From: Lachnospiraceae bacterium
Lineage (GTDB): Bacteria > Bacillota > Clostridia > Lachnospirales > Lachnospiraceae
Reading direction: 5' to 3'
Assembly (NCBI GenBank): GCA_003507655.1
Contig: DNUZ01000003.1
Span: 1-44,073, forward strand
DNA: 44,073 bases
Both the position numbers and the translations under genes were made by a program. Below the pieces are notes generated by a model that worked only from the letters and a program-made list of their open reading frames with translations, had not been told where the DNA came from and made no database searches. Below are positions 17,768 through 40,131 of this stretch, piece after piece (the stretch's first letter is position 1; the number at the start of each line of letters is the position of its first letter).

Positions 17768-19327
17768 TTAATTCCAACTGATACCCATTTTATTTACAGA
17801 AAATCCATATTCATAGGTACTTCCATTCTTATCTGTTCTCCTAATTGTCTCCCCTGCACGATAGACCCCGATACTGGTGGATTGTGAACGGAAACCTCCA
17901 AAGAGCCAACGTAAAATGGAACGGTCCGGATCAAAGGTTGCCGTACACTCCCAGCTTCCGTCTACATTCTTTGTCGGTCTTCCAAATGATAATACTCCAC
18001 GGGTATCATACAGATAAAAATTCCCGCTTCCGCTGTCCTCTTTAATCTCATCTGTGGAGGATGCGATCTTCAATCCTCCCGCCGCAAGTTCCTCTAGTCC
18101 ATAAATTGTAAGCTTTGCACTGCTCATGTATGCCATACTCTTCCTGTCGGCTTCAATCCTTACCACATGCACAACCGCCTGATTCGATGTAAATACATGT
18201 CCTGCATCATCGGTTACAGATGCCGATACCGTAAAATCGCCGCTTGCCTCCGTTGCATTAATATGAATCTTCTGGTTGTTCTGCAGGCCATTATTATAAT
18301 TACTTTTCGATGCAGACCATACCAGATCAGAAATTTTTAATCCGGTTGAAGTTAAAATATCTGCATGATAGGTTACTTCTCCATTTCCATTCTTTTCCGG
18401 GTCTAAGGTACCCCCTGCCGGACTGATCCAGACTTCTTCCGGATAAATCCGGATTCCGGCATGGTTAATGTGGATCGTCATGCTTCCTTTGACTGACGGA
18501 TTCTGTGCAGACTGTGCCGTAATCGTCAATGTCTCTGCCGTCTCATCGGCTCCGATATGCAGGACTCCGTCTTCTCCTATATAGGTCTTGGCATTATTTG
18601 CTCCTGTACAAAACCAGTTCACCTTCTGGGATGGATAATGTTCTCCTGTTACAATGGCATAAAATACTTGTTCTTCGCCTTTTAATAAAGCCGTTCTCGA
18701 TGCATTGACCTCTACTTTTTTTACCACGGAAACTTCTTCTTCAGTCGGGTCTGTGACCTCGTAATCTTCTTCCTCGGTTGGATTCACAACCACGGCATTT
18801 CGCAGATGATATACCATATCTGCCTGATAGGTCTTTTTATCCTTTTTTAAGGTGACCGCTGCTTTCACTTTGCCTTTTTCCTGTGCCTTGGAAACATCCA
18901 TCGCAAAGCTCTCTACGTTTTCTGCGAGTGCTGTTTTTTCTACCGTAGTCGTATAGTCAGATGCCTCTGCCGCTTTTTCCTGTCTTTCATAATAGAGCTT
19001 TTTATCAGAAGCAGAATAGCTTAAAATATCTACCTGTGTTTTTCCGTTTTCCTCATCATAAATGGTGGTCACATCATCCTTTTGCCGGATTCCTCTCGCA
19101 CCGATGACATATTGCTCTAACTGGTTTAACAGCACCTGTGCTTCGTATTGCATATCTGTTTCGTTGCTGCTGGACTGATATGTCTTACTTCCTGACTGGA
19201 TCAGACTTACGACTCCTCCGCCTACAATCCCGATAATGGCGATTGCAACGATCAGCTCTACTAAAGAAAAACCATGGTTATTTACTTTTGTTGATGTTTT
19301 CCTGTTGCCGGATTGATCTCGATACAT
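17768..19327 (-). CDS. large minor pilin with Ig-like C-terminal domains
   Basis: This 519-residue protein carries a class III prepilin signal: a basic leader of 19 residues, then G|FSLVELIVAIAIIG with Glu at mature position 5, cleaved by the prepilin peptidase. The pilin part runs to about residue 190 (GspJ/PilW-like). It is followed by a Big_2-like bacterial Ig domain (~205-300, VEVNASRTALLKGEEQ...) and at least one further Ig-like segment (~305-400). Such fusions place adhesive domains on the pilus. The start ATG 19327 lies inside the preceding pilin gene (46-base overlap), but a clear AAAGGAG site in front of it supports this start. Confidence 0.85.
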   Translation of the reverse strand: MYRDQSGNRKTSTKVNNHGFSLVELIVAIAIIGIVGGGVVSLIQSGSKTYQSSSNETDMQYEAQVLLNQLEQYVIGARGIRQKDDVTTIYDEENGKTQVDILSYSASDKKLYYERQEKAAEASDYTTTVEKTALAENVESFAMDVSKAQEKGKVKAAVTLKKDKKTYQADMVYHLRNAVVVNPTEEEDYEVTDPTEEEVSVVKKVEVNASRTALLKGEEQVFYAIVTGEHYPSQKVNWFCTGANNAKTYIGEDGVLHIGADETAETLTITAQSAQNPSVKGSMTIHINHAGIRIYPEEVWISPAGGTLDPEKNGNGEVTYHADILTSTGLKISDLVWSASKSNYNNGLQNNQKIHINATEASGDFTVSASVTDDAGHVFTSNQAVVHVVRIEADRKSMAYMSSAKLTIYGLEELAAGGLKIASSTDEIKEDSGSGNFYLYDTRGVLSFGRPTKNVDGSWECTATFDPDRSILRWLFGGFRSQSTSIGVYRAGETIRRTDKNGSTYEYGFSVNKMGISWN

Positions 19328-19839
19328 TTTGAGTTCTCTCCTTTTTTGAATGTGATCTTTGTATATGTTAAATCTGATGTATCCTCTGTATTGACACAGA
19401 ACTTTGAAACGGCACCGGTAGATCTGTCATACCCGATCCGGATAAAAGTACTAAGGGAATCTCCTGCATTGTCCCTTAAAGTCTTTTCCCCTGTGCCATC
19501 CTGTTTTGCTGCGGATATCTCAACTCCGTGTGGTTTTCCTAATTTTTCCCGCTTCACGGTTTCAAATGTAACAGTTCCGCCGTTTTCTTTTTCTTTATAG
19601 GATTCTATATAATAGCATCCCTCTTTTTCATAGAGGCAGACTCCGCTTACGGTATTCTTAGACATGATCTCCGTTCTTGCCTTACGCATAAACCCGTCTG
19701 TCAGTTCTGTATACTTTTTTACCTGTGCGCTCTTGCTGTAATTGGAATTCCCGATCACGATGCCTCCAAGCACTGCCATGATCGCGATCACCACGATCAA
19801 TTCCAATAATGAGAAACCACCGTTTTTATTCTTATACAT
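19282..19839 (-). CDS. GspH/FimT-like minor pilin
   Basis: The 185-residue protein starts MYKNKNGG|FSLLELIVVIAIMAVLGG, a short class III leader with Gly before the cleavage site and Glu5 in the mature protein. The remainder resembles GspH/FimT-type minor pilins: a helix with KSAQVKKYTELTDGFMRKARTEI, then a compact beta domain. It is the smallest minor pilin of the set and probably takes part in the initiating tip complex. It lies 11 bases after the GspK-like gene and overlaps the next pilin gene. Confidence 0.85.
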   Translation of the reverse strand: MYKNKNGGFSLLELIVVIAIMAVLGGIVIGNSNYSKSAQVKKYTELTDGFMRKARTEIMSKNTVSGVCLYEKEGCYYIESYKEKENGGTVTFETVKREKLGKPHGVEISAAKQDGTGEKTLRDNAGDSLSTFIRIGYDRSTGAVSKFCVNTEDTSDLTYTKITFKKGENSKCIEINPATGKHQQK

Positions 19840-19850
19840 GTTCTACTCCA

Positions 19851-22043
19851 CTACTTTTTCGACCAGTTTGTGTATACTACAAGCTGCTCTAACCGTATCC
19901 TGTTATCAGATGATACCATTTCGACTTCTCTTCCAAGATATTTTTCAGAATCTGTCAGATAATCTTTTAACAGATAATCTTTTCCACTCTTTTGACAGGT
20001 ACCGCCTGCGATCAGTTGTGCAAGCTGGTTCTGGTTTTTGCAAAGCGTGATGTTTGCTTTTGCCGGAGAAACGGTTACTTTGCCTTTACTCAGGATCGTT
20101 CCCTCAAAATCTGTCCGTACCTCAACATCACCGGTTGCAATGACCATTCTGATCTTTGCTCCTGATGGTGCTTTTCCTAAAAAGGTATCATCAATGACTA
20201 ATTTTTGTGAGGTATTATCTGTCACATATGCGGCATAGGAAGTCCCGCCTTCTTTGTAAGTGAACCAGCCGGAAGTTCCTACCACATCAAACAATTTATC
20301 TTTTACTAAATTTTCAAAGACTGTTCTCGACTTCTGTACACCACTTAATGCCTCATAATTCAGTGTCAGATTGATATTATTTGAATGGAACATATCCTGA
20401 TAGCTGACAAGCTGGTCACTCATCTGTTTAGAATCAGACAGATCACTGCCCTCCGTAATGGTATCACCGATCGAAGTAATTCCCATTGCATCATATACTA
20501 AAATATTTCCATTCAAGTCCTTTTTTGCATTACGGTTGATCTGGACAGCTTTCTGATCCACATACAGATCCAGATAATTTTTAATCTTAGCCGATGCCGC
20601 GGAACCGTAATATGATGTAAAATAATCACTTGCTGCTTTGGCACTTTCAAATCTCATATAATAATAATAGAGATTTCCCTGTGTCATCTCCTCTATTCCG
20701 CTCACTCCCGGAGTCAATGCCTGTACACGGCTTAAAATATGACTCTTTAAAAGTACCGCCTGGTTTGTCGGTGTGTCTCCACCGGTATTTGCCAATGCCT
20801 GTATATGCATCTGCTCTGTCATTGGATTTGCCATACCGTCCATGCAGGACTCCGGCACTAAATAGGCGATCTGATTGCTCTTTACCGTTAGGGATTCCCC
20901 CATAAATACGGTACTGTTTCCGATATATGCATTTCCGGCAAGCATCAGTGTCGTAGACTGTCCTAAATTCAATCTCGCTTTTGCACTGCTTCCATTCACG
21001 CTGCTGCCTATGGCATTGACAATAATGGCACTGCTGTAATCCGATGGATTGTCTTCAATATCCTTTCTGATCTTCGCACTCTGATTAGAATCTGCCTTCA
21101 ATGCCGCTTTCGGATTGCCGAAGCCGTAATACTCTCCACCAATCTGTACATCGGCACTTCCAAACAAGGTCAGGTCATTGGCGGTATAGGTTGTTCCTTT
21201 TAGGGACAACTTCGATGCATTCGCTGCTTCAATATCATTTGACCATAGTGTTACCTTTGTCTCGCCCGAAAACTCTGAACCCTGTTCTAAGCAGAGCTTG
21301 TTTTTTAAGATCACATCGTTTCCCTTTTCCACAAGCAGATTCACACCATTTCCAACAGAAAGACTGGCATCATCGCCACCACCATAAATACTTCCATCCA
21401 CGGTAACGTTTGATGTTTTTTCTAAAGACGCTCCTTTCTGTGCGATCAGTGCATATTTTAAAACATTTGGAAATGAACCGCTCTCCGTAAAATTCATCTG
21501 TGGAAACAGGATCTGGATATCGGTCTGTACCCTTGTCTCATAATCCTGCTCATTCGTATAGGTCAAAAAAAGATTTTTCAAGGTCAGACCGCTTTCACTG
21601 ACACTCAGCTGCGGTGTCTTTCCCTCTACCGTTGTAAGGCTGGTCCGCTCTTTGACCTTTTGATCTAAAAAGTTCAGCAGATAGTCCACGTTGTAATGAT
21701 TCTCGTCCGATGATTGTGCCAGCTTACTTCTTAACACTTTGATATATGTCTCATTAAAATGCTTCGTCCGTTTTGCCGTACTTTTTCCGGTATAATCTGC
21801 CATCGTCTCTACATATGCCTGTGACATGGCATCGGATACATCGCTCTGCAGTCCCAGACGGATCTCATCTAATACACGCTCTGCATCATAAAAATTATTT
21901 TTTGATATACGGTTGGTCGCCTTCATCTGATAATTCCACAGTCCCATCGTCAATGCAACGGTTACTAAAACAGTTACCAGTGCAATTGCCGCGATGACCA
22001 TGACCAGTGAAACACCCCTGTTGTCTTTTTTTAACTTTTTCAT
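19851..22043 (-). CDS. GspK/PilX-like large minor pilin lacking Glu5
   Basis: The 730-residue protein has a prepilin leader and the mature start G|VSLVMVIAAIALVTVLV. The normally invariant Glu at mature position 5 is Met here, the signature of GspK-like tip pilins that cap the filament. Behind the N-terminal helix comes a helical region, then a long beta-rich part (~190-330) with repeated short strands such as VTVDGSIYGGGDD and ADVQIGGEYYGFGN, reminiscent of a bactofilin-like or beta-helix fold. The size far exceeds typical GspK (~320 residues). It sits between the PilV-like and FimT-like genes with gaps of 8 and 11 bases. Comparable large PilK proteins are known from clostridial pilus operons. 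Confidence 0.8.
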   Translation of the reverse strand: MKKLKKDNRGVSLVMVIAAIALVTVLVTVALTMGLWNYQMKATNRISKNNFYDAERVLDEIRLGLQSDVSDAMSQAYVETMADYTGKSTAKRTKHFNETYIKVLRSKLAQSSDENHYNVDYLLNFLDQKVKERTSLTTVEGKTPQLSVSESGLTLKNLFLTYTNEQDYETRVQTDIQILFPQMNFTESGSFPNVLKYALIAQKGASLEKTSNVTVDGSIYGGGDDASLSVGNGVNLLVEKGNDVILKNKLCLEQGSEFSGETKVTLWSNDIEAANASKLSLKGTTYTANDLTLFGSADVQIGGEYYGFGNPKAALKADSNQSAKIRKDIEDNPSDYSSAIIVNAIGSSVNGSSAKARLNLGQSTTLMLAGNAYIGNSTVFMGESLTVKSNQIAYLVPESCMDGMANPMTEQMHIQALANTGGDTPTNQAVLLKSHILSRVQALTPGVSGIEEMTQGNLYYYYMRFESAKAASDYFTSYYGSAASAKIKNYLDLYVDQKAVQINRNAKKDLNGNILVYDAMGITSIGDTITEGSDLSDSKQMSDQLVSYQDMFHSNNINLTLNYEALSGVQKSRTVFENLVKDKLFDVVGTSGWFTYKEGGTSYAAYVTDNTSQKLVIDDTFLGKAPSGAKIRMVIATGDVEVRTDFEGTILSKGKVTVSPAKANITLCKNQNQLAQLIAGGTCQKSGKDYLLKDYLTDSEKYLGREVEMVSSDNRIRLEQLVVYTNWSKK

Positions 22044-22051
22044 ATCTATTC

Positions 22052-23122
22052 CTACCTGGTGACTGTTCCCGTCAGTGTTGTGATTTCTTTGTTTTCCCGA
22101 TTTACTTTGACCGTAACATCATAAAGACGCGTATGTACACGTTTGCCATCGAGCCCGCTCAGTCCGAAATATTTTTCTAACTGTGACTGGTTCAACGAAG
22201 TTTCGCTTCCTCTTCCTTTATAATAGAATAGCGGTGTGTCCGCATCCGTAAAGTTTGCCCGTATCCGGATCCCCTTTGTAAAGTCCGGGTCCTGCTCTTC
22301 CCCAAAGTGTTCCTTTTCTTTCGTTCCAACCAGATGTACCTCTACTTTGGCTGCCTGATCTCCTTGTTTGATTAAAAACAGGTTCAGTGGATAATCGTCT
22401 TTATTCTGGACTGTAATTGTATTTTTTGCATTTGGTTCAAAACAGATATAAAGATTTTCAAGAGTTCCGCCCGCCTGTCTGCTGTCATATAAAAGCATCG
22501 GATGCTCTCCTAAAAGAATCCCATTATAATAATAAGAGACGTTCTGCCAGATGTTCTGTTGATTCTTATCTGCCGCTACTACATAATTCCACCGGATATC
22601 TAAATTTTTCAGTACTGTATCCTTCTGGTCTGCCTGTACCTTGTTTTCTGAAACTGCCTTGATAAAATCTTCTTCGATGATCTTATCATCCTGTACATAG
22701 ACTCCGTCTTTGGAAAGATCGATCCTTTTTAAATCTACAACTTCTTTCTTATTGTAGTCTGCGTCAGCATTCTCCGTGTTCTGATACGGACGTACCTCTA
22801 CGGTAACCGCAAATTTTTTTCCATCCGACTCATATTCGGGATAGGTGAATTTGTATCCTGTCTTTTTTCCATCTTCCTCAATATAACCTACATCTGAGAT
22901 TGATTTACTGTCCTTATCCCGAATAAAGGCTTCCATACCGTCCGCTTTTAAATCCTCTAACACTGCCTCTCCTGCCGAAGTTGCAGCTAACAACACTCTG
23001 GATCTTGCATTAGTCTGAACGGTAAGGATCATGGATTTAAAAAGAGGAACCACGCAGATCACCAGTATCGCTGTGGCAATCAATATTTCCACTAAAGACA
23101 CACCGCGATCATCCTGTTTCAT
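22052..23122 (-). CDS. PilV-like minor pilin
   Basis: The start at 23122 is preceded by AAAGGAGGAA at ideal distance and gives MKQDDRG|VSLVEILIATAILVI, a class III prepilin leader with Glu5 in the mature pilin (356 residues). The ATG 18 bases upstream overlaps this ribosome site and is less likely. The C-terminal body is beta-rich, with a calcium-free, Lys/Glu-rich composition. Position between pilO and the GspK-like gene matches the PilV/GspI slot in clostridial pilus operons. It probably forms part of the initiating minor-pilin complex. Confidence 0.82.
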   Translation of the reverse strand: MKQDDRGVSLVEILIATAILVICVVPLFKSMILTVQTNARSRVLLAATSAGEAVLEDLKADGMEAFIRDKDSKSISDVGYIEEDGKKTGYKFTYPEYESDGKKFAVTVEVRPYQNTENADADYNKKEVVDLKRIDLSKDGVYVQDDKIIEEDFIKAVSENKVQADQKDTVLKNLDIRWNYVVAADKNQQNIWQNVSYYYNGILLGEHPMLLYDSRQAGGTLENLYICFEPNAKNTITVQNKDDYPLNLFLIKQGDQAAKVEVHLVGTKEKEHFGEEQDPDFTKGIRIRANFTDADTPLFYYKGRGSETSLNQSQLEKYFGLSGLDGKRVHTRLYDVTVKVNRENKEITTLTGTVTR

Positions 23123-23171
23123 CCGTGTTCCTCCTTTCATTCCATCTTAAAATCTACTGCTACATTCCTGC

Positions 23172-23912
23172 TTACTGCTCCGGAGTCTCCGTTGCCTGTG
23201 TCTCTCCTGCCTGCTGTGAAGCCTTTGTCTGCTGTACATCTTCCGGTGCTATACCGGATGCTCCACCGAAAATATTATCTGTTCCCTTTTGAACATCATT
23301 AATCTCTGCTGGCTGATACTCTTCTCCTGTTCCTAACATATAGTACTGCTTCATGCGAATGTCTCCTACCAGATTTCCGCTTGCCTCATCCAGTGTCAGC
23401 ACCATTTCATTTATGGATTTTCTTTCTTCTTCTTTTGGTATCCGATGAAGCCAGTCCTTTAACTGGGAATAGGATACCGTAAACTCCAGTATTTCCGGTA
23501 CGCCATAAATGGAAAGACCGGCTTCCTGATTCTCTGCCACAAGTTCTCCTGCTTCCATGCTGACCTTGGTAATACGCAGGCTGTCATAACGCTTTTCCAT
23601 ATCGGAAGCATAGAGGATCTGGTCTCTTGCTTTTACCATTGCCGGAAATTCTTTATAATATTCTTTTGTTTTTTTCTTCCATTCTTCCGTCTGAGCAATA
23701 TATTCTTTTTCATTTTTCTGAATGACATCCAACTCTTTTAATTCTGCTTCTAGTGCAGCCTTCTCGGCTTTCTGTGCTTTATTTTCTACTAAAAAATTAC
23801 GAAAACCGAACTGAACGACCAGTACGACTAAAAGAATTCCTCCAACTATAAATAAGAGATTTTTATCCCGTTCACTCATACCGGCACTCTTTACTTTTCT
23901 ATCTTTTTTCAT
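23172..23912 (-). CDS. pilO: PilO-like pilus assembly protein
   Basis: The 246-residue bitopic protein has a short basic cytoplasmic tail, one membrane helix (~18-40, LLFIVGGILLVVLVVQFGF) and then a long coiled coil (~45-90) and a ferredoxin-like domain (~95-195). This is the plan of PilO, which pairs with PilN to align the platform with the pilus motor. The C-terminal ~45 residues are a Gln/Thr/Ala-rich tail with no fold. It follows pilMN by 21 bases with GGAGGGGG upstream. The identification relies on architecture and position more than on strong sequence motifs. Confidence 0.75.
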   Translation of the reverse strand: MKKDRKVKSAGMSERDKNLLFIVGGILLVVLVVQFGFRNFLVENKAQKAEKAALEAELKELDVIQKNEKEYIAQTEEWKKKTKEYYKEFPAMVKARDQILYASDMEKRYDSLRITKVSMEAGELVAENQEAGLSIYGVPEILEFTVSYSQLKDWLHRIPKEEERKSINEMVLTLDEASGNLVGDIRMKQYYMLGTGEEYQPAEINDVQKGTDNIFGGASGIAPEDVQQTKASQQAGETQATETPEQ

Positions 23913-23933
23913 CGGATTACCCCCTCCGTACTT

Positions 23934-25595
23934 CTATTTTCCTGCGGTCTGATCCTGCTGCTTTGTTTCAAGTGATTCTACGTCTTCGTTCATAGTCGTT
24001 TCATTCTGTGTCTCGCTATCTGCAGTCCCTCCTACATAGGTACAGATCACCATGAAATCCACATAGGACTGATTGGATTCGCTGACCGTCTCCTCTAAAG
24101 ATTCCACCTGAACATCACTGATACTCTCAAAATCAGAAAGTTCATCTACGATCTTGGTTGCCTCGCGCTTAGAACTTACGCGTATATCCAGCGTGATACT
24201 CTCAGAAGTTGAGGTAATGGAACGTACTAAAATATCACTTGGCATATTCTTTTCTAATTCGTCAATGAATCCACCGATCCCCTCTGAGGTTGTCGTGGTC
24301 TCTTTATAGAGATTTTCAATTTTTTCATATTCGGTCTTTGCCTGATTGTATTCTTTATACTCATCCGCAAGATACTGTTTTTCGCTTCGCTCTTTTTGCA
24401 GTTTATGAACACCCATCTTCAAATAGCCATAGTATGGAATGACCGCTAATAAAAGCACGAGTGATACCACAACACAGATCCCAAAGAACTGTTTTGGCTC
24501 AATATGAATCTGCTTATGCTCTTTTTTCTTCTCCGCAACTTCCTTTTCATCTTCTAAACGGAATTTCATCGGATTGACTGCGGCTCCGACACAGGTCAGA
24601 TACATCAGCGGATAATAATCTCCCGTGTTGCCTTTTTCCTGCGGGAGTGCTTCCCTTAACGATTCGCCTGAAACAGGAATACTCAGCTCATCGGACAGAT
24701 ACTGCTCCATTCCACAGATATCTGCACCGGTACCATAGAGAACGATATTCTCCATCTCCGCACCGGCATGATTGGAACTGTAAAAATTCATCACACGCGA
24801 AACGTTTCCTGTAATGGCACGAAAACCTTCTGTGATATCCTCTTGAATCTCTTCCTCTTCTAAGCTCAGGACATTTTCTTTCCGCATCTTTTCGAGTGTC
24901 TCATAGAAATCAATATCTTCACCAAAATGTCCGGATTTTTGAACCGCCTGTACAACATCTGCGATTCCATAAGGGAAGGTTCTTTGTAACTCAATCTTGT
25001 TCTCACGGACGATTGTGATCATCGTAGTGTCTTCTTCTAATCTTACCGCCGCGTATAAGTCATTTTTGATATTTTTTTCTAAAAGCTGTGTTGCGGCATT
25101 GCCTATGTAGTCTAAATCTACCAGTGTCAATAAGCAGACTTTTGCTAACGATTTATAAGCATCGATCATTTCGTTTGGTACGGCAAGTACCATCAGCTTA
25201 TATTTCTGTTCGCCCTCTTCCTCTACTTCATCTAACAGCCGGTAACTCAACTGATATTTTTCAAGGTCTACCGGAAAATACTCCGCAGAGTTTGCATACA
25301 ACAATGTCCGGATACGGTTTTCTTTTACATGCGGAATGACAACATCCCTGCTGGCGATCCTGCTGGATGCTAATACAAACACTGCCTTTCTTGTCTTAAT
25401 CTTATGTTCTTCAAGCCCTGCATCCAGACGCTCTTTAAACGGAAGAACGTCCGCAAGTGTCTCTTCTTTAAAGAGATTATCCGGTGTCTGGAAACTGAAA
25501 CTCTTATAGATTTTCGGTTCTTTTACTTTGAAATCCGTCTCTACAACGTGAGTCATACGGTTTCCAATCTCAATACATAATACTCTATTTGCCAT
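23934..25595 (-). CDS. pilMN: PilM-PilN fusion protein
   Basis: The 553-residue protein joins two assembly proteins. Residues 1-~355 are an actin-like PilM/FtsA fold (LCIEIGNRMTHVVE, the late phosphate motif IVLYGTGADICG). Residues ~370-391 form a membrane helix, and ~392-530 are PilN-like, with a coiled coil (QKERSEKQYLADEYKEYNQA) and the ferredoxin-like strands ILVRSITSTSE and SDVQVES. In Gram-negative systems PilM (cytoplasm) binds the PilN tail; here they are covalently linked. Similar PilMN fusions are known from clostridial pilus loci such as that of Clostridioides difficile. The last ~25 residues are acidic and unstructured. Confidence 0.87.
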   Translation of the reverse strand: MANRVLCIEIGNRMTHVVETDFKVKEPKIYKSFSFQTPDNLFKEETLADVLPFKERLDAGLEEHKIKTRKAVFVLASSRIASRDVVIPHVKENRIRTLLYANSAEYFPVDLEKYQLSYRLLDEVEEEGEQKYKLMVLAVPNEMIDAYKSLAKVCLLTLVDLDYIGNAATQLLEKNIKNDLYAAVRLEEDTTMITIVRENKIELQRTFPYGIADVVQAVQKSGHFGEDIDFYETLEKMRKENVLSLEEEEIQEDITEGFRAITGNVSRVMNFYSSNHAGAEMENIVLYGTGADICGMEQYLSDELSIPVSGESLREALPQEKGNTGDYYPLMYLTCVGAAVNPMKFRLEDEKEVAEKKKEHKQIHIEPKQFFGICVVVSLVLLLAVIPYYGYLKMGVHKLQKERSEKQYLADEYKEYNQAKTEYEKIENLYKETTTTSEGIGGFIDELEKNMPSDILVRSITSTSESITLDIRVSSKREATKIVDELSDFESISDVQVESLEETVSESNQSYVDFMVICTYVGGTADSETQNETTMNEDVESLETKQQDQTAGK

Positions 25596-25675
25596 CTTCT
25601 CATTCCCTTGCTATCATTTTTCACTGTCTGTTCCCACAAAAAGACCTTCCCTGTACCTTTTGTCGAAACAAACGC

Positions 25676-26431
25676 CTACCAAAGACGCATATACATCTGT
25701 AACAGGCTGTCACCCCAGAGCGCCGCTAATAAAATACCGGCTGCTAAGTACGGTCCCATTGCTAACACATGATCCTCATTTGTCAGTTTCATGCGCAGCA
25801 GATGGATGACCGAACCAAGAATACAGCCCATTACAAATGCTATTATAATTGCTTTCCAACCTAACATCATGCCCGCTGCCGCCATCAGCTTAATGTCTCC
25901 GCCTCCAATGGCTCTGCCCTTAGATAACAGATACAGCAGATATAAAAAAGCACTGACTGCGAAAAAACCTATGACATAGTCTTTCCACCGTGCTAAATCC
26001 AGCAGCATATGTATGCAGGCAAGGATAAATATAAATACGTTGATCCCAAAAGGAATCTCATATGTGCGAAAATCGATCACACTAAGCACCAGCAATGCGG
26101 ATGCCATCAGAGAGTATATCCCACTCTCTACATTCAGTCCATTGACTGCAAAAATCAGAACATACATGAATCCATTGACTGCCTCGACAATCGGATACTG
26201 GCAGGAAAGCTTTGTCTTACACTTTCTGCACTTACCTCTAAGAAAGATATAACTAAAGATAGGGATTAAGTCATACCATTTCAACTGATATCCGCAGGTC
26301 ATACAGTGGGAGTTCACTTTGACAATGTCCTCTCCTTTTGGAATGCGGTAAATACAGACATTCAAAAAACTGCCTATGACGATTCCAAATAAAAATATGA
26401 GAATTTCTGCGAATATCAGTATGGTATCCAT
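25676..26431 (-). CDS. pilD: prepilin peptidase / N-methyltransferase
   Basis: The 251-residue membrane protein removes the leader of prepilins and methylates the new N-terminus. The zinc-binding cysteines are present as C43-x2-C46 and C68-x2-C71, so the methyltransferase domain is intact. The two catalytic aspartates of the GXGD-type protease are Asp120 (SVIDFRTYEIP) and Asp179 (GGGDIKL). About seven to eight membrane segments can be counted. AAAGGAA lies 12 bases before the ATG. It is embedded in the pilus operon directly after the major pilin gene, so all five pilins in the operon are its likely substrates. Confidence 0.95.
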   Translation of the reverse strand: MDTILIFAEILIFLFGIVIGSFLNVCIYRIPKGEDIVKVNSHCMTCGYQLKWYDLIPIFSYIFLRGKCRKCKTKLSCQYPIVEAVNGFMYVLIFAVNGLNVESGIYSLMASALLVLSVIDFRTYEIPFGINVFIFILACIHMLLDLARWKDYVIGFFAVSAFLYLLYLLSKGRAIGGGDIKLMAAAGMMLGWKAIIIAFVMGCILGSVIHLLRMKLTNEDHVLAMGPYLAAGILLAALWGDSLLQMYMRLW

Positions 26432-26462
26432 GTGTTAGTCCGTTCCTTTCAAACTGCAAAAA

Positions 26463-26888
26463 TTACTTAGCCCAGTTACCTTCTGCTTCCGGATATAACT
26501 GAGTATCACCAACTTTAACGGTTACTTCACCATCTGCGCTAACGGAATATTTGAAGTTACCACTTGCTGCTTTTACTTTTGGTACTCCACCAAAAACCTC
26601 TTTCTGAGTTCTTGCTGTACTAGCAGCATCTGTATCGCCATCCCATTTTGCTTTACCATCAGTGATTGTCTGCTCAGCAACTGCTGTTGTTCTCGCTGTA
26701 TCAGCGAACTCTGCACTGATTGCAGTTGCAATCTGCTGTGCATTCTGGATATCGGTAGAAATTCTGGATCTTCCAATATACTTAACGAACTGTGGTGCTA
26801 AAACTCCTGCTAAGATTGCCATGATCGCAATTACGATGATCAATTCTACTAACGAGAATCCTTTGTTGTTACGCTTTGTCCTTTTCAT
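26463..26888 (-). CDS. pilA: major type IV pilin
   Basis: The 141-residue prepilin has a basic 10-residue leader, then G10|FSLVELIIVIAIMAILAGVL, with Glu at mature position 5. The mature pilin is about 131 residues, small and free of cysteines, so the D-loop cannot be closed by a disulfide as in many Gram-negative pilins. Ala/Thr-rich composition fits an abundant subunit. A strong AAGGAGAG precedes the ATG. A 90-base gap to pilC is the largest in this part of the operon and ends in an A+T-rich stretch with a TAATAT-like -10, but no matching -35 is visible; a pilA-specific promoter or processing site remains possible. Confidence 0.93.
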   Translation of the reverse strand: MKRTKRNNKGFSLVELIIVIAIMAILAGVLAPQFVKYIGRSRISTDIQNAQQIATAISAEFADTARTTAVAEQTITDGKAKWDGDTDAASTARTQKEVFGGVPKVKAASGNFKYSVSADGEVTVKVGDTQLYPEAEGNWAK

Positions 26889-26978
26889 AATGAATCTCTC
26901 CTTTTTCTTTTTTATATATTATCTCAAGTCCGAAGCCCTATCCCCCGGAAATTAGATACACGGAATACCCCTGCGGTC

Positions 26979-28193
26979 CTACATATTGCCAACGCCGTTG
27001 TATAACGAAAGCATTGGCCCCATGATCGCCGCTATCAGAATGACTACGATGATCGCCATAAATACAATGATCATCGGCTCTAAAAGTGCTAAAACGGTCT
27101 GAGTTGTTACCTCTACCTCTTCATCATAGTAATCTGCTAATTTATCTAACATTTCCTCAATCTCTCCGGTCTCTTCTCCGATCGCCATCATATGTACTAC
27201 CATCGGTGGAAAGAGTCCTCCATTTTTCAATGGTTCCGAAAGAGGAACACCTTTTGCGATTTCTTCTTTTGCTTTTAATAACTCTCTTTTGTATAAAATA
27301 TTTGTCATTGTATTTGCCACACTGTCTACTGCATCGATCATCGGGATTCCCGCCTGCATCAATGTGCTGAGTGTTCTTGCAAATACGGAAGAGTAGGTCT
27401 TGATGTTCAGATTCTTAAATACCGGGATCTTGATCGCTCTCGTACCAAAAAACTCCTGCCCTGACTCTGTTTTTTTCCAGCTTTTTATTCCTATAACGAT
27501 TGCTACAATGATTGCAACTAAGAGGATGGCATGATTTTTTACAAAATCTCCCATGTGCATAATTGCCAATGTCAATGCCGGCATATCAAAATCATATCCC
27601 TCAAACATTTCCATATAATTTGGGATAACATACGTCAGCATAACGATTAAAATTACCAGTGCCACAACTCCTAATACCATCGGATACATCATGGAGCGTT
27701 TCATCATGCCCTTTAACTTGGCTTCTTTTTCAAACTGGATTGCCATACGCTCTAAGGACTTGTCGATACTTCCACTGGTTTCTCCGGCTTCTACCATGTT
27801 GACTAACATCGGTGGAAATACTTTGTTCTGCTTCTCCATCGCCTCTGACAGGGTACTTCCCTTTCCAATCTCCGTTCTTACCTCTCGAATTGCCTGTGAA
27901 AGTGTCTTATTTTCGGTCTGTATCGACAGCATATCTAATGCTTCCACTATACTGACTCCGGCACGGAGCATACTTACAAACTGACGGCAGAACACGCTTA
28001 GATCTCTTGTCTTGACTTTTTTGCCCACGCCGATCTTAATATCTTTTTGTAAGGCATTCTGCTCTTTGATCTCTAATGGAATACACCCCTGCGAACGCAG
28101 TTTCTGTTCGACTTTTTCCCTGCTGTCCGATTCCATACTTCCTTTTATTTCTTTTCCGCTTTTTTCAATTGCAATATAAGAATAATCCGCCAT
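26979..28193 (-). CDS. pilC: type IV pilus inner-membrane platform protein
   Basis: The 404-residue protein is the platform that couples the PilB/PilT motors to the pilin helix. It contains two copies of the GspF domain, at ~65-190 and ~270-395, each with the typical FCRQFVSMLRAGVSIVEALDML-type and FARTLSTLMQAGIPMIDAVDSV-type helices, plus three membrane segments (~168-188, ~215-233, ~372-395). Paired motifs PPMLVNMVEAGETSG and PPMVVHMMAIGEETG are family hallmarks. It follows pilT by 18 bases. Confidence 0.95.
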   Translation of the reverse strand: MADYSYIAIEKSGKEIKGSMESDSREKVEQKLRSQGCIPLEIKEQNALQKDIKIGVGKKVKTRDLSVFCRQFVSMLRAGVSIVEALDMLSIQTENKTLSQAIREVRTEIGKGSTLSEAMEKQNKVFPPMLVNMVEAGETSGSIDKSLERMAIQFEKEAKLKGMMKRSMMYPMVLGVVALVILIVMLTYVIPNYMEMFEGYDFDMPALTLAIMHMGDFVKNHAILLVAIIVAIVIGIKSWKKTESGQEFFGTRAIKIPVFKNLNIKTYSSVFARTLSTLMQAGIPMIDAVDSVANTMTNILYKRELLKAKEEIAKGVPLSEPLKNGGLFPPMVVHMMAIGEETGEIEEMLDKLADYYDEEVEVTTQTVLALLEPMIIVFMAIIVVILIAAIMGPMLSLYNGVGNM

Positions 28194-28211
28194 TTTCCTC
28201 TCCTCTATCTC

Positions 28212-29270
28212 TTAAAACAGATTAATCTTCTGTGACATTCCCGCCGCATCATGTGCAAAACTGATTGCCGTCTCTGCAGTAATATAGCTTTTCATATACA
28301 GATCATAAATTGCATCATCCATCGTCTGCATCCCCATTTTCTTGTTGGTCTGGATAATCGATGGAATCTGAAAGCTTTTTTCCTCACGGATCAGATTCCG
28401 TATCGCCGGAACCGCAAGCATGACCTCATATGCTGCCACTCTTCCGCCTTCCTGCCTTGGCAGAAGCTGTTGTGCCACCACACCCTCTAAAACACCTGCT
28501 AACTGCACACGGATCTGCTGCTGCTGAAACGGTGGAAAGACATCGATCATACGGTCTACTGCCGAAGCCGCACTATTCGTATGAAGCGTGGAAAATACCA
28601 GATGTCCTGTCTCCGCTGCCGTAATGGCAATGGAAATCGTCTCTAAATCACGCATCTCACCGACTAAGATCACATCAGGGTCCTGTCTTAGGGCCGCCCT
28701 GACCGCATTTGCATAGGACATCGAATCATAACCGATTTCTCTTTGCAGTACCATTCCTTTTCCATGTCCATGCAAATATTCGATCGGATCTTCTAAGGTA
28801 ATGATCGTCTTTTTGTAATTCTTTGAAATCACTCCGATCAAAGAAGCTAACGTTGTGGATTTACCACTTCCGGTTGCTCCTGTTACTAACACCATACCTC
28901 TCTTTTTTGAAGTCAGATTTACAACTGCCTCCGGAACGCCTAAATCCTTCGGTAACGGAATCTCAAATGAAAGGATACGAAGTGCCATCGCATACGTTCC
29001 TCTTTGACGGAACACATTGACACGCACCCGGTTAAATCCTGCGATAGAATGTGCAAAATCCAGTTCACCTTCCCGCTCTAACACTTCTAACTGCTCGGTT
29101 GTCAGCATTGGCTTGATCATTTCTTCTATTTCATATGGCTTAATCTTTTCCTCCGACATCGGTATCAGATCTCCGTCGATACGGAACATGACCGGACTGC
29201 CGGGACAAAGATGAATATCTGAAGCGTTTCTTTGATTTCCGTCGATTAAAATATCTTCTATTTTACCCAT
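28212..29270 (-). CDS. pilT: pilus retraction ATPase
   Basis: The 352-residue protein is a PilT-type secretion ATPase that depolymerises the pilus. Walker A is GATGSGKST (131-139). The Asp box LEDPIEYLH, the Walker B region DPDVILVGEMRD and the His box GHLVFSTLHTNSA are intact. The retraction-specific C-terminal AIRNLIRE motif (VPAIRNLIREEK) is present, which distinguishes it from PilB. No CxxC zinc motif. The presence of PilT means the pili can probably retract, as needed for twitching and for DNA uptake. It lies 14 bases downstream of pilB. Confidence 0.96.
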   Translation of the reverse strand: MGKIEDILIDGNQRNASDIHLCPGSPVMFRIDGDLIPMSEEKIKPYEIEEMIKPMLTTEQLEVLEREGELDFAHSIAGFNRVRVNVFRQRGTYAMALRILSFEIPLPKDLGVPEAVVNLTSKKRGMVLVTGATGSGKSTTLASLIGVISKNYKKTIITLEDPIEYLHGHGKGMVLQREIGYDSMSYANAVRAALRQDPDVILVGEMRDLETISIAITAAETGHLVFSTLHTNSAASAVDRMIDVFPPFQQQQIRVQLAGVLEGVVAQQLLPRQEGGRVAAYEVMLAVPAIRNLIREEKSFQIPSIIQTNKKMGMQTMDDAIYDLYMKSYITAETAISFAHDAAGMSQKINLF

Positions 29271-29284
29271 AACCTGTTTTTCCT

Positions 29285-30979
29285 CTATTCTCCAAGTGAG
29301 ATACGGATCATCTCATGGTAGGATGTTTCTCCTTCTAAAACGAGTCTGACCGCTTCACTGTGTAACGTTTTCATTCCTTCTTTCACTGCCACTTCACGAA
29401 TCTCATCCGTAGACATCCGTGCCGCAATTGCATTGCGCAGAGTCGATGTGACCGGCATCATCTCATAAATACCGGTTCTTCCGTAAAATCCAGTGTCATT
29501 GCAGTGTTCACAGCCTACCGGCTCATAAATCTCAACCTCTTCCATTGGGTTAATGCCCATCATGCCCTTTTCTTCTCCAAGGGCTTTCCGTTTTCTCTTA
29601 CAATGCGGACAAAGTCTTCGCACCAGCCGCTGTGCAATGACGCCTCTCATGGCATCTGCTAACAGATAACTTTCTACGCCCATATCCATTAATCGCGTCA
29701 TGGTTCCCGGTGCATCATTCGTATGCAAGGTACTCAACACTAAATGTCCCGTAATGGATGCCTGCACTGCGATAGATGCTGTTTCCCTGTCTCGAATCTC
29801 ACCTATCATGATAACGTCCGGGTCCTGTCTCAATATGGAACGAAGTGCCGAAGCAAACGTCAGATCCGCTTTTGCATTGACCTGTACCTGACTCACTCCG
29901 TCTACATTTGCCTCTACCGGATCTTCTACGGTAATGATATTAATATTTTCGTGGTTTCTTTCGTTCACCGCCGTATATAAGGTCGTAGACTTACCACTAC
30001 CGGTAGGTCCTGTTACCAGTATAATCCCATTCGGATGATTCAGCATATCATCAAATAACTGCAACTGCTGTTCGGTAAATCCAAGACTCTTTTTATCTCT
30101 TGTCAAGGCTTTTTTCTGTGCCAGACGCATTACGCATTTTTCACCGTAAACCGTCGGAAGAATGGATGCACGGATATCATATTCCTTCCGGTCGATCATC
30201 ATGGTGATTCTTCCGTCCTGTGGTCTTCTCTTTTCGGAAATGTCCATATTTCCGATAATCTTTACACGAGTAATGATTGCACTTAACAAATTGATGTGAT
30301 AGGTCGATTTTTCATAAAGCACACCATCAATACGATAACGGACACGCACTTTATCTTCCATCGGCTCAATGTGAATATCGGACGCACGTTGCCTCGCCGC
30401 CTGTTCAATCATGGATTTTACAAGCTGTACGATCGGTGAATTTGCAACATCCTCATCTTCTGCCTGCTCCTCCTTTGTTTTCCGGCTCTCACGTTCTTTG
30501 GCATACTGCTCTGCCACTCTTTGTGCTTCGCTGTCACCGTAATATTTGTCCAGAGTCACTAAGATATCCTGTGTCGTTGCAATCACAGGCTCTACCTGTA
30601 GATTCGTGATAATAGAAAAATCATCTATTCCCCGCATATCCATCGGATCTGCCATTGCAACACGGATAATATTTACGTTTCCTTCTTTATACTCAAACGG
30701 TATCATCAGATGCTTTCGAAGCAGCTTACCATCTGCTAACTTGATGATATCATCCTCTATTTTCATTCCATGCAGAGAAATAAATGGGATATTTAACTGT
30801 GTTGCAAGCCCTTCCCCAATTGCTTCCTCTGTCGCATAACCAAGATCCACAAGCATCTCGCCTATTTTTTTGTGAGCAGTCTTATTCTTCTCCAATGCAT
30901 CTTCTAACTGCTCCTGCGTAATAATACCTGCTTCGAGAAGCATATCCCCTATACGCTTCTTCTGTCTGAAGTCAGCCAC
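29285..30979 (-). CDS. pilB: pilus extension ATPase with MshEN-type N-domain
   Basis: The 564-residue protein starts at GTG 30979 with GGGGGA upstream. The N-terminal 130 residues hold two consecutive motifs of the MshEN type (residues 9-32, RIGDMLLEAG..., and 38-61, KIGEMLVDLG...), which in MshE and relatives bind cyclic di-GMP. Walker A is GPTGSGKSTT, followed by VEDPVEANVDG, DPDVIMIGEIRD and LSTLHTNDAP. The zinc-binding cysteines are present (LCPHC and CEHC). It is the first gene of the ~18 kb pilus operon. c-di-GMP control of the motor is inferred from the motifs. Confidence 0.95.
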   Translation of the reverse strand: MADFRQKKRIGDMLLEAGIITQEQLEDALEKNKTAHKKIGEMLVDLGYATEEAIGEGLATQLNIPFISLHGMKIEDDIIKLADGKLLRKHLMIPFEYKEGNVNIIRVAMADPMDMRGIDDFSIITNLQVEPVIATTQDILVTLDKYYGDSEAQRVAEQYAKERESRKTKEEQAEDEDVANSPIVQLVKSMIEQAARQRASDIHIEPMEDKVRVRYRIDGVLYEKSTYHINLLSAIITRVKIIGNMDISEKRRPQDGRITMMIDRKEYDIRASILPTVYGEKCVMRLAQKKALTRDKKSLGFTEQQLQLFDDMLNHPNGIILVTGPTGSGKSTTLYTAVNERNHENINIITVEDPVEANVDGVSQVQVNAKADLTFASALRSILRQDPDVIMIGEIRDRETASIAVQASITGHLVLSTLHTNDAPGTMTRLMDMGVESYLLADAMRGVIAQRLVRRLCPHCKRKRKALGEEKGMMGINPMEEVEIYEPVGCEHCNDTGFYGRTGIYEMMPVTSTLRNAIAARMSTDEIREVAVKEGMKTLHSEAVRLVLEGETSYHEMIRISLGE

Positions 30980-31289: not shown

Positions 31290-31642
31290 ATATATAAGCA
31301 GGACTGTAAGCCGGGTTATGTTTTTCAGATGATCATCTATCTAGAACAACTGTTGCCAGCTGCTTCAAGCAACCTACCTAAGACTAACGGGCCGCATTAT
31401 CGTCTTGCTTCGGTCTTGCTTCAGATGGGGTTTACATGTGCCCCCTCTGTTACCAGAGAGGCGGTAGTCTCTTACACTGCCCTTCCACCCTTACCGGTTG
31501 CCCGGCGGTATATTTCTGTTGCACTGTCCTTGGAGTTACCTCCACCGGCCGTTAGCCGGCATCCTGCCCTGTGAAGCCCGGACTTTCCTCGTCTGCGGTC
31601 TTTCGACACTTGCAGCCGCGATCATCCATCCTACTTATATAT
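31290..31642 (-). ncRNA. rnpB: RNase P RNA
   Basis: The catalytic RNA of RNase P, which matures tRNA 5' ends. On the minus strand I recognise the invariant blocks GAGGAAAGTCCGGGCTTC with ACAGGGCA after it, GGTAAGGGTG with GGGCAGTG-like sequence behind it, the GCGGCCCGTTAG segment, and the 3' part GGCTTACAGTCC. Helix P1 can be drawn between 31628-31642 and 31290-31304 with only G-U wobbles, which defines both ends to within a few bases (about 353 nt). Several plus-strand frames over this region are incidental. Confidence 0.93.
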
Positions 31643-37953: not shown

Positions 37954-38961
37954 CTAGCCGATCTCCCATGCTTTTGGCAAAAAGAATTCTCTGTATTTTG
38001 CCACCGCATACTGGTCTGTCATGCCTGAAATGTAGTCACACACCACACGTTCTTTTTTCTCGCCTTCACTGTGCATCCTCTGATACTGCTCCGGCAATAT
38101 CTCTATATGTCCCATATAATGTGCATAAAGTTCACACAATAATCGCTCTGCCTTTGCTTCTTCACCTTTTGCTGCAGGATTTGTATAAACTTTCTGAAAC
38201 ATGAATTTTCGCAAATCCTGCATCGCACCGCCGATCTCTTCTGACATCACAATATCATTTTTTCCCATACTGTTCATAATGATATTATGTATCAGGGTAT
38301 TTAAACGTTCCTTGGTTGTCATACCAAGAACTTTGCGGATCTCTAACGGGATATCTTCCTCACTCATGACTTTTGCACGGATGGCATCGTCGATATCATG
38401 GTTGATATACGCGATCTTATCCGACAAACGGACGATCTTTCCCTCTAGCGTATGCGGCATCATACTGGTCTGGTGGTTTAATATCCCATCACGCACTTCC
38501 CATGTCAGGTTCAGTCCCTTACCGTCTTTTTCAAGTTTCTCCACAATCCGCACACTCTGCTCATTATGGCGGTATCCTTCCTCACACAGCTCATTCAAGA
38601 TCCGCTCGCCCGCATGGCCAAACGGTGTATGCCCTAAATCATGACCTAATGCAATGGCTTCGACCAAATCCTCATTCAGACGCAGTGCTTTCGCAATGGT
38701 GCGGGCATTCTGCGACACTTCTAACGTATGGGTCAGACGCGTTCTGTAATGGTCTCCCTTCGGACTTAAGAATACCTGTGTCTTGTGTTTTAGGCGTCGA
38801 AAAGACTTACAGTGCAAAATCCGGTCTCTGTCCCTTTGAAAAACAGGACGGATATCACACTGCGGTTCTTCGCGGTCACGCCCTCTTGAATTAACACTAA
38901 GTGTAGCAAACGGACTTAATGAAATCTCTTCCATCCGCTCTAAATTTTCCCTGATTGACAT
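37954..38961 (-). CDS. dgt: dGTPase-like HD-domain triphosphohydrolase
   Basis: The 335-residue protein hydrolyses dNTPs to deoxynucleoside and triphosphate. HD-domain ligands are visible: HRTRLTHTLEVSQ, then IALGHDLGHTPFGH with the His-Asp pair, and a later conserved Asp in KIAYINHDIDDAI. I use ATG 38961, which follows GGAGGAATTTGC, instead of an in-frame ATG 111 bases upstream: the extra N-terminus is Lys-rich and lacks family similarity. It heads the dgt-dnaG-rpoD-trmK-nif3-kinase cluster; short dGTPases next to dnaG and rpoD are common in Clostridia. Confidence 0.94.
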   Translation of the reverse strand: MSIRENLERMEEISLSPFATLSVNSRGRDREEPQCDIRPVFQRDRDRILHCKSFRRLKHKTQVFLSPKGDHYRTRLTHTLEVSQNARTIAKALRLNEDLVEAIALGHDLGHTPFGHAGERILNELCEEGYRHNEQSVRIVEKLEKDGKGLNLTWEVRDGILNHQTSMMPHTLEGKIVRLSDKIAYINHDIDDAIRAKVMSEEDIPLEIRKVLGMTTKERLNTLIHNIIMNSMGKNDIVMSEEIGGAMQDLRKFMFQKVYTNPAAKGEEAKAERLLCELYAHYMGHIEILPEQYQRMHSEGEKKERVVCDYISGMTDQYAVAKYREFFLPKAWEIG

Positions 38962-39132
38962 GCAAATTCCTCCACAGCGCAAAGTCTCTATTTTAATATT
39001 TCTGTGCGAGGGTGGGATTTCCTTTATTTTTTTCGACTTTTTTTTCAATTCTTTCAGATGTTGGAAACGCAAGTTTGCTATGCATAGATGCAGGTATTAA
39101 GAATGTTCTTAAATCTCCCGGCAGTGATCGGG
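38962..39132. promoter_or_regulatory. dgt upstream region with a palindrome
   Basis: This is the leader and presumed promoter region of dgt. I see no sigma-A pair of good quality. TTAAGAA-TG-TTCTTAA at 39097-39112 is a perfect palindrome with 7-base arms and could be an operator. It stands just outside the first large structured element. Confidence 0.35.
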
Positions 39133-39347
39133 GTTCCGTTCGGCTATGCATGGGTGCGGGTGTTGGGATATAAGGCATTCGGACTTTCTCTGGAACGGAG
39201 TTGGGGACGGACGCAAACGACACCAATCCGCCCTCCATGGCGGTGGTGTCTTTCCGCGACTTCCTGTCGCGGAATTGCTGATTATGCGAGAAAATCTCGA
39301 ATGTCTAATATCCCACACCATGTACCCGGTGCATTGCCGAACGGAAC
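39133..39347 (+). repeat. large structured element, copy 1
   Basis: A 215-base palindromic element. The outer arms pair 39133-39181 with 39299-39347: the first 12 bases GTTCCGTTCGGC are perfect, and the rest is interrupted by small mismatches. The core 39202-39280 contains hairpin A (39219-39250, GACACC...CCGCC, loop CTCCAT, GGCGG...GGTGTC) and hairpin B (39252-39260 with 39266-39274, perfect 9-base stem). The unpaired block GACGGACGCAAACG stands before hairpin A, and AATTGCTG after hairpin B. The core is shared with copy 2 in opposite orientation. Possible reading frames of up to ~95 codons run through it but are broken into by the palindrome and lack good ribosome sites. Nature unknown: structured RNA, cruciform DNA site or non-autonomous mobile element. 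Confidence 0.75.
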
Positions 39348-39481
39348 ACGATGTAGCAAAAAACGATTATAGAGCTTGCGATGGAATAACATTGAAAAAT
39401 ATCTAAGGATTATAAATTATAAAAGGCTTATTCTGAATCCGTCATGAAAATACAAAAGCTTTTATCGTTGCGAAATGAACA

Positions 39482-39632
39482 CTTTTAAAGTAGTACAATA
39501 TAGTCCAATAATATAATAGAATTCTTTGAACTTAGACAATACTGTAAAACAAAAAATAAAACCCTTTAACTGAGACAACGTTGCAAAACAAAATAAAAAA
39601 AACCTTGAGTTGCGACAACACGGTAAAAAAAT
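39482..39632. repeat. degenerate ~39-40 base tandem repeat
   Basis: Units at about 39482, 39524, 39564 and 39604 share the pattern CTTT-AAC, then GACAA, then GTAAAACAAAATAAAA-CC. Units 2 and 3 are the best pair (GACAA separated by 39 bases), units 1 and 4 are weaker. The A+T-rich array links the two large structured elements. In one minus-strand frame it would give a 13-residue repeat, but no credible gene carries it. Confidence 0.6.
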
Positions 39633-39836
39633 ATTCCTACAGGGATTTATGTTCAGACATCCGGGTATCTTGATATTTTGTTCTACACACAGCAATTCCC
39701 CGACACGATGTCGGGGAAAGGTGCTGCTGAGCCATGGATGGCGAATCAGTACCGTTTGCGTACGTCGCCAGCACACTCTCACAAAATATTTAGATACCCG
39801 GATGTCTGATACATCCTCCCTGTAGGAATATTTTTT
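39625..39836 (-). repeat. large structured element, copy 2 (also terminator-like)
   Basis: A 212-base palindromic element related to copy 1 but inverted. Its outer arms contain perfect complements AATATTCCTACAGGGA (16 bases), CAGACATCCGGGTATCT (17 bases) and ATATTTTGT (9 bases). The core 39690-39770, read on the minus strand, aligns with copy 1 over ~80 bases at about three quarters identity (hand count). Hairpin B is a perfect 10-base stem (39696-39705 with 39709-39718). Hairpin A spans 39720-39753 around an ATGGAT loop (ATCCAT on the minus strand). The arms end in A6/T6-7 runs on both sides, so the whole also looks like a bidirectional terminator. It begins at the stop codon of the neighbouring membrane-protein gene. 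Confidence 0.75.
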
Positions 39837-40131
39837 AAATGCACACCGGAAAATTCTCCACACAATACTGCAGCACTCCCATTCCCATCGCAAAGAATCC
39901 CAGCAGGATCGTCAGAAAGATCGCCGCTCCGTCATATTTAAGCTTTATGCCCTCCTCTTTATTGCGGCAGGACAACAGCATTTCTACACCCAGTGCAATT
40001 AAAATGACCGGCCAGAATTTAATAATGAACTCATATTTGAGTGCCGGAACAAACATATGCACCATAAATAAAACTCCAAATATGATCAACAAGGCTCCAC
40101 AGGTAAGACTTCCTACTCTTCTGGTTTTCAT
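39835..40131 (-). CDS. small LiaI/LiaF-TM-like membrane protein
   Basis: The 98-residue protein has three predicted membrane helices (about 8-28, 36-54 and 68-88) with the pattern GALLIIFGVLFM and KFWPVILIALGVEML seen in the LiaF transmembrane region / DUF5668-like small membrane proteins linked to envelope stress. It starts one base after the stop of the preceding membrane-protein gene (TAAGATG), so translation is probably coupled. It is the last gene of the ECF-sigma operon, and its stop codon touches the end of structured element copy 2. Function unknown; an envelope-stress effector role is inferred from context. Confidence 0.75.
   Translation of the reverse strand: MKTRRVGSLTCGALLIIFGVLFMVHMFVPALKYEFIIKFWPVILIALGVEMLLSCRNKEEGIKLKYDGAAIFLTILLGFFAMGMGVLQYCVENFPVCI

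Follow-up and report, generated by a model that had tools for sequence, protein, structure and literature searches.

Two related elements lying in opposite orientation in a 44,073-nucleotide stretch of Lachnospiraceae DNA (hereafter the window) were identified, with near certainty, as members of the TwoAYGGAY family (Rfam RF01731). They are typical of a family already described, and their detection is a rediscovery of TwoAYGGAY; what this analysis adds is the mobile behaviour of the family, which is very probably a dispersed, MITE-like mobile repeat, together with the GGA loops kept in most copies and a co-occurrence with CsrA. The best reading of the evidence, to which about even chances are given, is that TwoAYGGAY is a transposable element carrying a CsrA-binding decoy.

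TwoAYGGAY copies of the window

An earlier note on this DNA had described the pair as related elements on opposite strands with a common core, and named the two hairpins of that core A and B. Direct reading of the sequence showed two long hairpins in DNA free of genes. The following features were identified:

39133..39150, no strand, outer stem arm of copy 1 (inverted repeat, 94%; partner 39330-39347)
39159..39320, - strand, TwoAYGGAY copy 1 (RF01731, full model 1-168; cmscan 86.8 bits, E 1.1e-13, cut-off 43)
39228..39243, - strand, copy 1 hairpin 2 (hairpin A of the earlier note), CCATGGAGGG on the - strand, GGA loop (sequence, folds, loop class)
39252..39274, - strand, copy 1 hairpin 1 (hairpin B of the earlier note), ACAGGAAGT on the - strand, GGA loop (sequence, folds, loop class)
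39321..39647, no strand, A+T-rich spacer between the outward-pointing copies (promoter-like site scan)
39330..39347, no strand, second arm of the copy 1 outer stem (same inverted repeat as 39133..39150)
39626..39645, no strand, outer stem arm of copy 2 with an A-run at its start (inverted repeat, 20/20 complementary; partner 39817-39836)
39648..39814, + strand, TwoAYGGAY copy 2 (RF01731, full model 1-168; cmscan 118.6 bits, E 6.4e-21, cut-off 43)
39696..39718, + strand, copy 2 hairpin 1, loop ACACGATGT with CGA in place of GGA, a recurrent variant (sequence, fold, loop class)
39731..39742, + strand, copy 2 hairpin 2, GCCATGGATGGC, GGA loop (sequence, fold, loop class)
39817..39836, no strand, second arm of the copy 2 outer stem with a T-run at its end (partner 39626..39645)

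Both copies exceeded the RF01731 gathering cut-off (43 bits) over the full model, with 118.6 and 86.8 bits, and the earlier proposal of a new structured RNA is thereby withdrawn; TwoAYGGAY was itself among the families that the note had named for checking. The known RNA is read from the strand opposite to that quoted there (- for copy 1, + for copy 2). All other Rfam families scored far under their own cut-offs in 38950-39900.

Alignment of the two cores (39202-39280, reversed, against 39690-39770) gave 61 identical columns out of 81, with a local score of 80 that was reached by 0 of 500 dinucleotide shuffles, confirming the common core. The arms, described earlier as unrelated between copies and self-complementary within each, were found to be so: left arm against left arm and right arm against right arm were at shuffle level (the observed scores being reached by 191 and 127 of 500 shuffles, respectively), and the two arms belonging to each copy were complementary with scores of 66 and 84 (0 of 500 shuffles each). 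Hairpin B was also seen to have changed on both sides with its pairing retained. Folding relative to shuffles gave z values of -14.6 for copy 2 and -11.0 for copy 1. By eye, no target duplication was visible at the two copies. According to the open reading frame list, the copy 2 outer stem (up to 39836) runs into the stop codon of a 98-aa gene (39835-40131, - strand). Part of the left arm of copy 1 (22 bases, 39143-39164) is repeated at 82% 66 bases further out (39077-39098), where it is perhaps what remains of an older arm.

The seven promoter-like sites reported for 38900-40000 all fell in the spacer (2.6 expected), which is weak evidence. The spacer also holds an imperfect tandem repeat of about 39 bases (39526-39640), with two units found by the tool used and a third by eye. 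No empty site could be read for this locus, as the 80 relatives of the dGTPase gene lacked the right-hand synteny, two weak sigma-factor matches aside; the seven closest matches of this gene (75-77% identical) were from six Lachnospiraceae and one Petralouisia muris. Elsewhere, the window carries a class A RNase P RNA (31291-31637, - strand, 290.7 bits) and a type IV pilus or type II secretion-like operon (19282-30979) with GspE/PilT-like ATPases, a PilC-like protein, pilins and a prepilin peptidase, all named from translations.

Copy number and mobility

Full scoring identified 32 TwoAYGGAY copies in relative G117, 18 in G338, 9 in G330 and 12 in G379, with 16, 4 and 10 copies of the latter three above the cut-off. 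For the family and class surveys described below, copies per genome are lower bounds, 9 and 11 candidates having been scored in each, respectively.

The 18 places of G338, all situated on a single 3.14-Mb contig, showed that the repeat reaches beyond the Rfam model. Both terminal inverted repeats were present in 15 of the 18 copies, 284-397 bp apart end to end, and 12 of these 15 were flanked by exact direct repeats of 7-11 bp (7 bp being the minimum counted), compared to 1 of 210 crossed pairings in which the flanks came from different copies (a one-base offset being allowed). Homologues with terminal repeats and target-site duplications, which the earlier note had put forward as the mark of an ordinary MITE, thus exist in this genome. 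The same ends were found around five elements that lack the core and measure 107-134 bp, among which L202 and L203 have exact target repeats of 8 bp, and also around longer, partly nested elements. This occurrence of the same ends with and without the core indicates that the ends are able to move without it. Among the matches listed, such further terminal-repeat pairs of G338, the five core-less elements included, numbered eleven in all; they span 107-614 bp, which leaves no room for a transposase gene, and three of them have exact repeats of 7 bp or more. For subfamily A of G117, target duplications are suggestive only, a common flank of at least 7 bp being found in 6 of 11 copies versus 9 of 110 crossed pairings, with boundaries that are loosely set.

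Of 47 copies placed with an ORF heuristic (29 of the 32 in G117 and all 18 in G338), none was inside a gene. Their orientation with respect to neighbouring genes was unbiased (18 same, 16 opposite, 9 divergent and 4 convergent), which gives no help to a role as a strand-specific transcript.

Certain G338 copies were observed to be enlarged. In L197-L200 the right arm has an extra hairpin, about 112 bases long, which brings the element to 396-397 bp (versus 284-287 bp), and L206 has an apparent second core nested inside the first, suggesting that these repeats grow by nesting. Movement of the core alone with a GCGTAGG target repeat was considered and rejected, as the short 134-bp relatives are equally explained by deletion between direct repeats. 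Two degenerate exact-match patterns gave 0 matches on viral contigs, a weak test of phage carriage.

Separate histories of core and arms

Three other close inverted pairs were examined among the matches listed, two in G018 and one in G040. The cores of the G018 pairs were 98.6% and 100% identical, with arms 59-66% alike (raw identity by global alignment), and the G040 pair had a core 73% identical and arms 55-58% alike; in every copy of these pairs the element's own arms were complementary. The arrangement that combines a conserved core with arms that differ between copies and are self-complementary is therefore recurrent. Arms too are conserved within the subfamilies of G117 and in G338. From the inverted pairs we infer that cores may be exchanged or converted between neighbouring inverted copies. 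The earlier suggestion of a mobile core residing in hairpin loops comes nearer to the G018 pairs, and to the G338 ends with and without a core, than does a plain MITE.

In all four inverted pairs (the window pair, and L227, L228 and L229 among the matches listed) the cores point outward (-,+), a number too small to test. A search for divergent promoters between the inverted pairs found none in the two G018 pairs and one weak site in G040, so that such promoters are not proposed here despite the sites in the window spacer.

Covariation of the paired regions

An alignment of 29 sequences and 182 columns was made from the two window copies and 27 of the 31 best-per-genome loci; the four left out were L082, L100, L105 and L109, and in single-sequence folds the second hairpin of L105 and of L109 is atypical. 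Standard pairs occupied 88.8% of the pair cells, compared to 58.8% for shuffled sequences and 36-48% after sliding one of the sides, so that the covariation which the earlier note had asked to be checked is indeed beyond chance. Changes on both sides were found at 37 of 39 pairs. Only 9 of the 182 columns were invariant, 8 of them belonging to the loops of the two hairpins or to the base pairs that close them.

Under an identical procedure, G-U pairs made up 13 of 474 standard pairs in TwoAYGGAY (12 sequences) and 120 of 965 in the RNase P RNA of 10 of the same genomes and the window, making them four to five times rarer in TwoAYGGAY. As stems that act only as RNA usually tolerate G-U, this rarity suggests that the covariation derives in part from DNA palindromes, which is probably the case. 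The selection on structure claimed earlier is accordingly upheld as far as the 37 covarying pairs go, and qualified by the rare G-U pairs, which point to DNA palindromes. Rarity of G-U may be a general means of separating DNA palindromes from RNA stems.

GGA motifs in the hairpin loops

GGA was present in three of the four window loops, namely both loops of copy 1 and one of copy 2, in which hairpin 1 has CGA; the strict AYGGAY string was found only in hairpin 2 of copy 2. Across 156 copies from 45 genomes and the window, with loop classes assigned by alignment columns, GGA was identified in hairpin 1 of 141 copies, in hairpin 2 of 141 and in both of 132. These counts carry some bias, since the candidates were picked with a model containing the loops. 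GGA was missing from at least one loop in 24 of the 156 copies, six of which lacked it in both. The CGA loop recurs, with 24 such loops in the 156 copies, window copy 2 and the four paired G018 copies included; in the latter, GGA is absent from both loops. Of the 46 sources, 45 had at least one copy with at least one GGA loop, the exception being G091. Unclassed for loops were L105 (a G018 pair member, counted once), L142, L143, L163, L144-L148 (G338 copies that entered the count as other loci), the loci of G330 and G379 and more copies in L229-L232. Of 43 single-sequence folds, made for one copy per genome (the set omitting L159, near-identical to the G338 copies), 31 had GGA in both hairpins, 9 in one hairpin and 3 in neither.

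The commonest loop context of the 156 copies was CA-N-GGA-Y-G, which resembles the CsrA/RsmE site. The base that precedes GGA varies freely in CsrA sites. In the Rfam 12 paper (PMC4383904), the CsrA motif is given as a short GGA hairpin that is generally paired. The constancy of GGA within single genomes did not go beyond chance (p 0.30, 0.23 and 0.11; L165 and L193 were excluded from the G338 group).

Co-occurrence with CsrA

The family sample consisted of 298 genomes of the family to which G001, source of locus L001, belongs, with the element in 46 and CsrA in 151. CsrA was found in 44 of the 46 element-bearing genomes versus 107 of the 252 others (p 1e-12, kinship uncorrected). The class sample of 243 genomes gave 23 of 24 versus 67 of 219 (p 3e-10, kinship likewise uncorrected), or 15 of 15 when matches above the cut-off alone were counted. 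The samples overlap by at least seven genomes, those with no match being known in part, and after removal of the seven in common the class sample stood at 19 of 20 versus 64 of 216. Three element-bearing genomes were found without CsrA, G153 and G278 in the family sample and G459 in the class sample. The CsrA hypothesis for TwoAYGGAY thus passes a co-occurrence test that it could have failed.

Cas1, used as a neutral control in the family sample, showed no association (20 of 46 versus 121 of 252, p 0.63). Flagellin, present in 45 of 46 (counted by eye) versus 108 of 252, is as strongly associated with the element as CsrA is, which makes CsrA inseparable from motility, the remaining confounder. 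The association is specific against one neutral gene (Cas1) and not against motility.

Proposed explanation and alternatives

TwoAYGGAY may be described as a short, non-autonomous (MITE-like) palindromic element of CsrA-bearing Clostridia with two hairpins having GGA-type loops at its centre. A DDE-type transposase acting in trans would spread the element by way of its ends, and a promoter of its own or an adjacent one would transcribe it. The two hairpins could then bind both faces of a CsrA dimer, titrating CsrA as the CsrB/RsmZ RNAs of gammaproteobacteria do. The window pair would be an older pair of insertions whose target duplications are no longer visible at the ends. Judged from its loops and the genomes that carry it, binding of CsrA by TwoAYGGAY is favoured slightly over its absence. 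A broader version is put forward tentatively, as somewhat less than an even prospect: that TwoAYGGAY is a mobile CsrA-titration module, whose two-hairpin core moves from one palindromic carrier to another, unrelated one, by way of MITE ends and of exchange among adjacent inverted copies, and reaches tens of copies in CsrA-bearing Clostridia.

The main alternative, possible if somewhat doubtful, is that these are plain DNA repeats, the hairpins of a MITE mattering only as DNA (as a cruciform or transposition intermediate), and that the link to csrA reflects the shared ancestry of motile Clostridia. This would suit the terminal repeats and target duplications of G338, the five core-less elements with the same ends (L202 and L203 having their exact 8-bp target repeats), the scarcity of G-U pairs, the unbiased orientation of insertions and a flagellin association equal to that of CsrA. 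Against it, conservation among the 29 sequences is highest in the loops and the pairs that close them, and GGA is mostly kept across 46 sources with varied arms, the base before it being free to vary as it is in CsrA sites. A palindrome serving only as DNA has no obvious cause to keep a GGA loop on one strand, and the CsrA association is found in the class sample also.

A host-owned, CsrB-like sRNA sequestering CsrA, much duplicated and not itself mobile, would account for the GGA hairpins and the co-occurrence with CsrA, and is what PMC4333381 proposes, but it is at odds with 32 dispersed copies in G117 and with the terminal repeats, target duplications and core-less relatives in G338, and is considered quite unlikely. 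Marginally less credence still is given to a role for the flanking genes, as their bidirectional terminator or as a cis-regulatory leader. In copy 2 the outer stem does overlap a stop codon, with its A-run pairing with its T-run; however, a terminator scan (which limits loops to 3-8) did not report the stem, the 47 copies have no consistent orientation to their neighbours, and in the 80 relatives the right-hand neighbours of the window pair were not found next to the dGTPase gene, apart from the two weak sigma-factor matches.

If the titration module is real, the dose of a global regulator acting after transcription is set, or disturbed, by a transposable element. TwoAYGGAY has had no assigned function since 2010, and should the reading as a decoy-carrying element hold, a structured RNA of Rfam would be a transposable element with regulator-binding sites. 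The CsrB-like antagonists of Clostridia, not yet known at the time of PMC4333381, would in that case be multicopy and mobile, and it would become possible to test CsrA regulation directly in gut Lachnospiraceae. Should the RNA side of the reading fail, the family serves as a warning that long covarying stems can arise from DNA palindromes.

Comparison with known systems

TwoAYGGAY was described by Weinberg et al. 2010 as a probable RNA that is neither cis-regulatory nor a riboswitch (PMC2864571), and RF01731 carries the Rfam type label Cis-reg and belongs to clan CL00106. Gardner and Eldai 2014 proposed it, from two matches to the CsrA motif, as a CsrA-binding sRNA of Clostridia, unvalidated (PMC4333381). 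The Rfam 15 paper reports two additional covarying pairs (PMC11701678), and the family is named in structure surveys (PMC11661157 and PMC7657543). In titles and abstract openings, a coverage outside which most subscription papers lie, neither mobility of TwoAYGGAY nor its co-occurrence with csrA was reported.

The window copies match RF01731 with the same two hairpins and enclosing stem. The family as described is a candidate RNA, whereas here it was found to be a dispersed repeat that is longer than the model and, in a relative, has terminal repeats. REP/BIME elements, which are associated with RAYTs, are also intergenic palindromes and at times form inverted pairs, as here; unlike them, TwoAYGGAY has terminal repeats and target duplications of 7-11 bp, a misfit with the HUH mechanism.

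TwoAYGGAY shares GGA hairpin loops and the pairing of such sites with CsrB, CsrC, RsmX, RsmY and RsmZ. Those sRNAs are low-copy genes, whereas TwoAYGGAY is a multicopy mobile repeat of Clostridia and a candidate binder of CsrA. At the time of PMC4333381 they had been identified in Gammaproteobacteria only. With bacterial MITEs, TwoAYGGAY has in common a short length, terminal inverted repeats, target-site duplications and many intergenic copies; it differs from them in that its core, and not its ends, is conserved across genomes, and in that this core varies independently of the ends.
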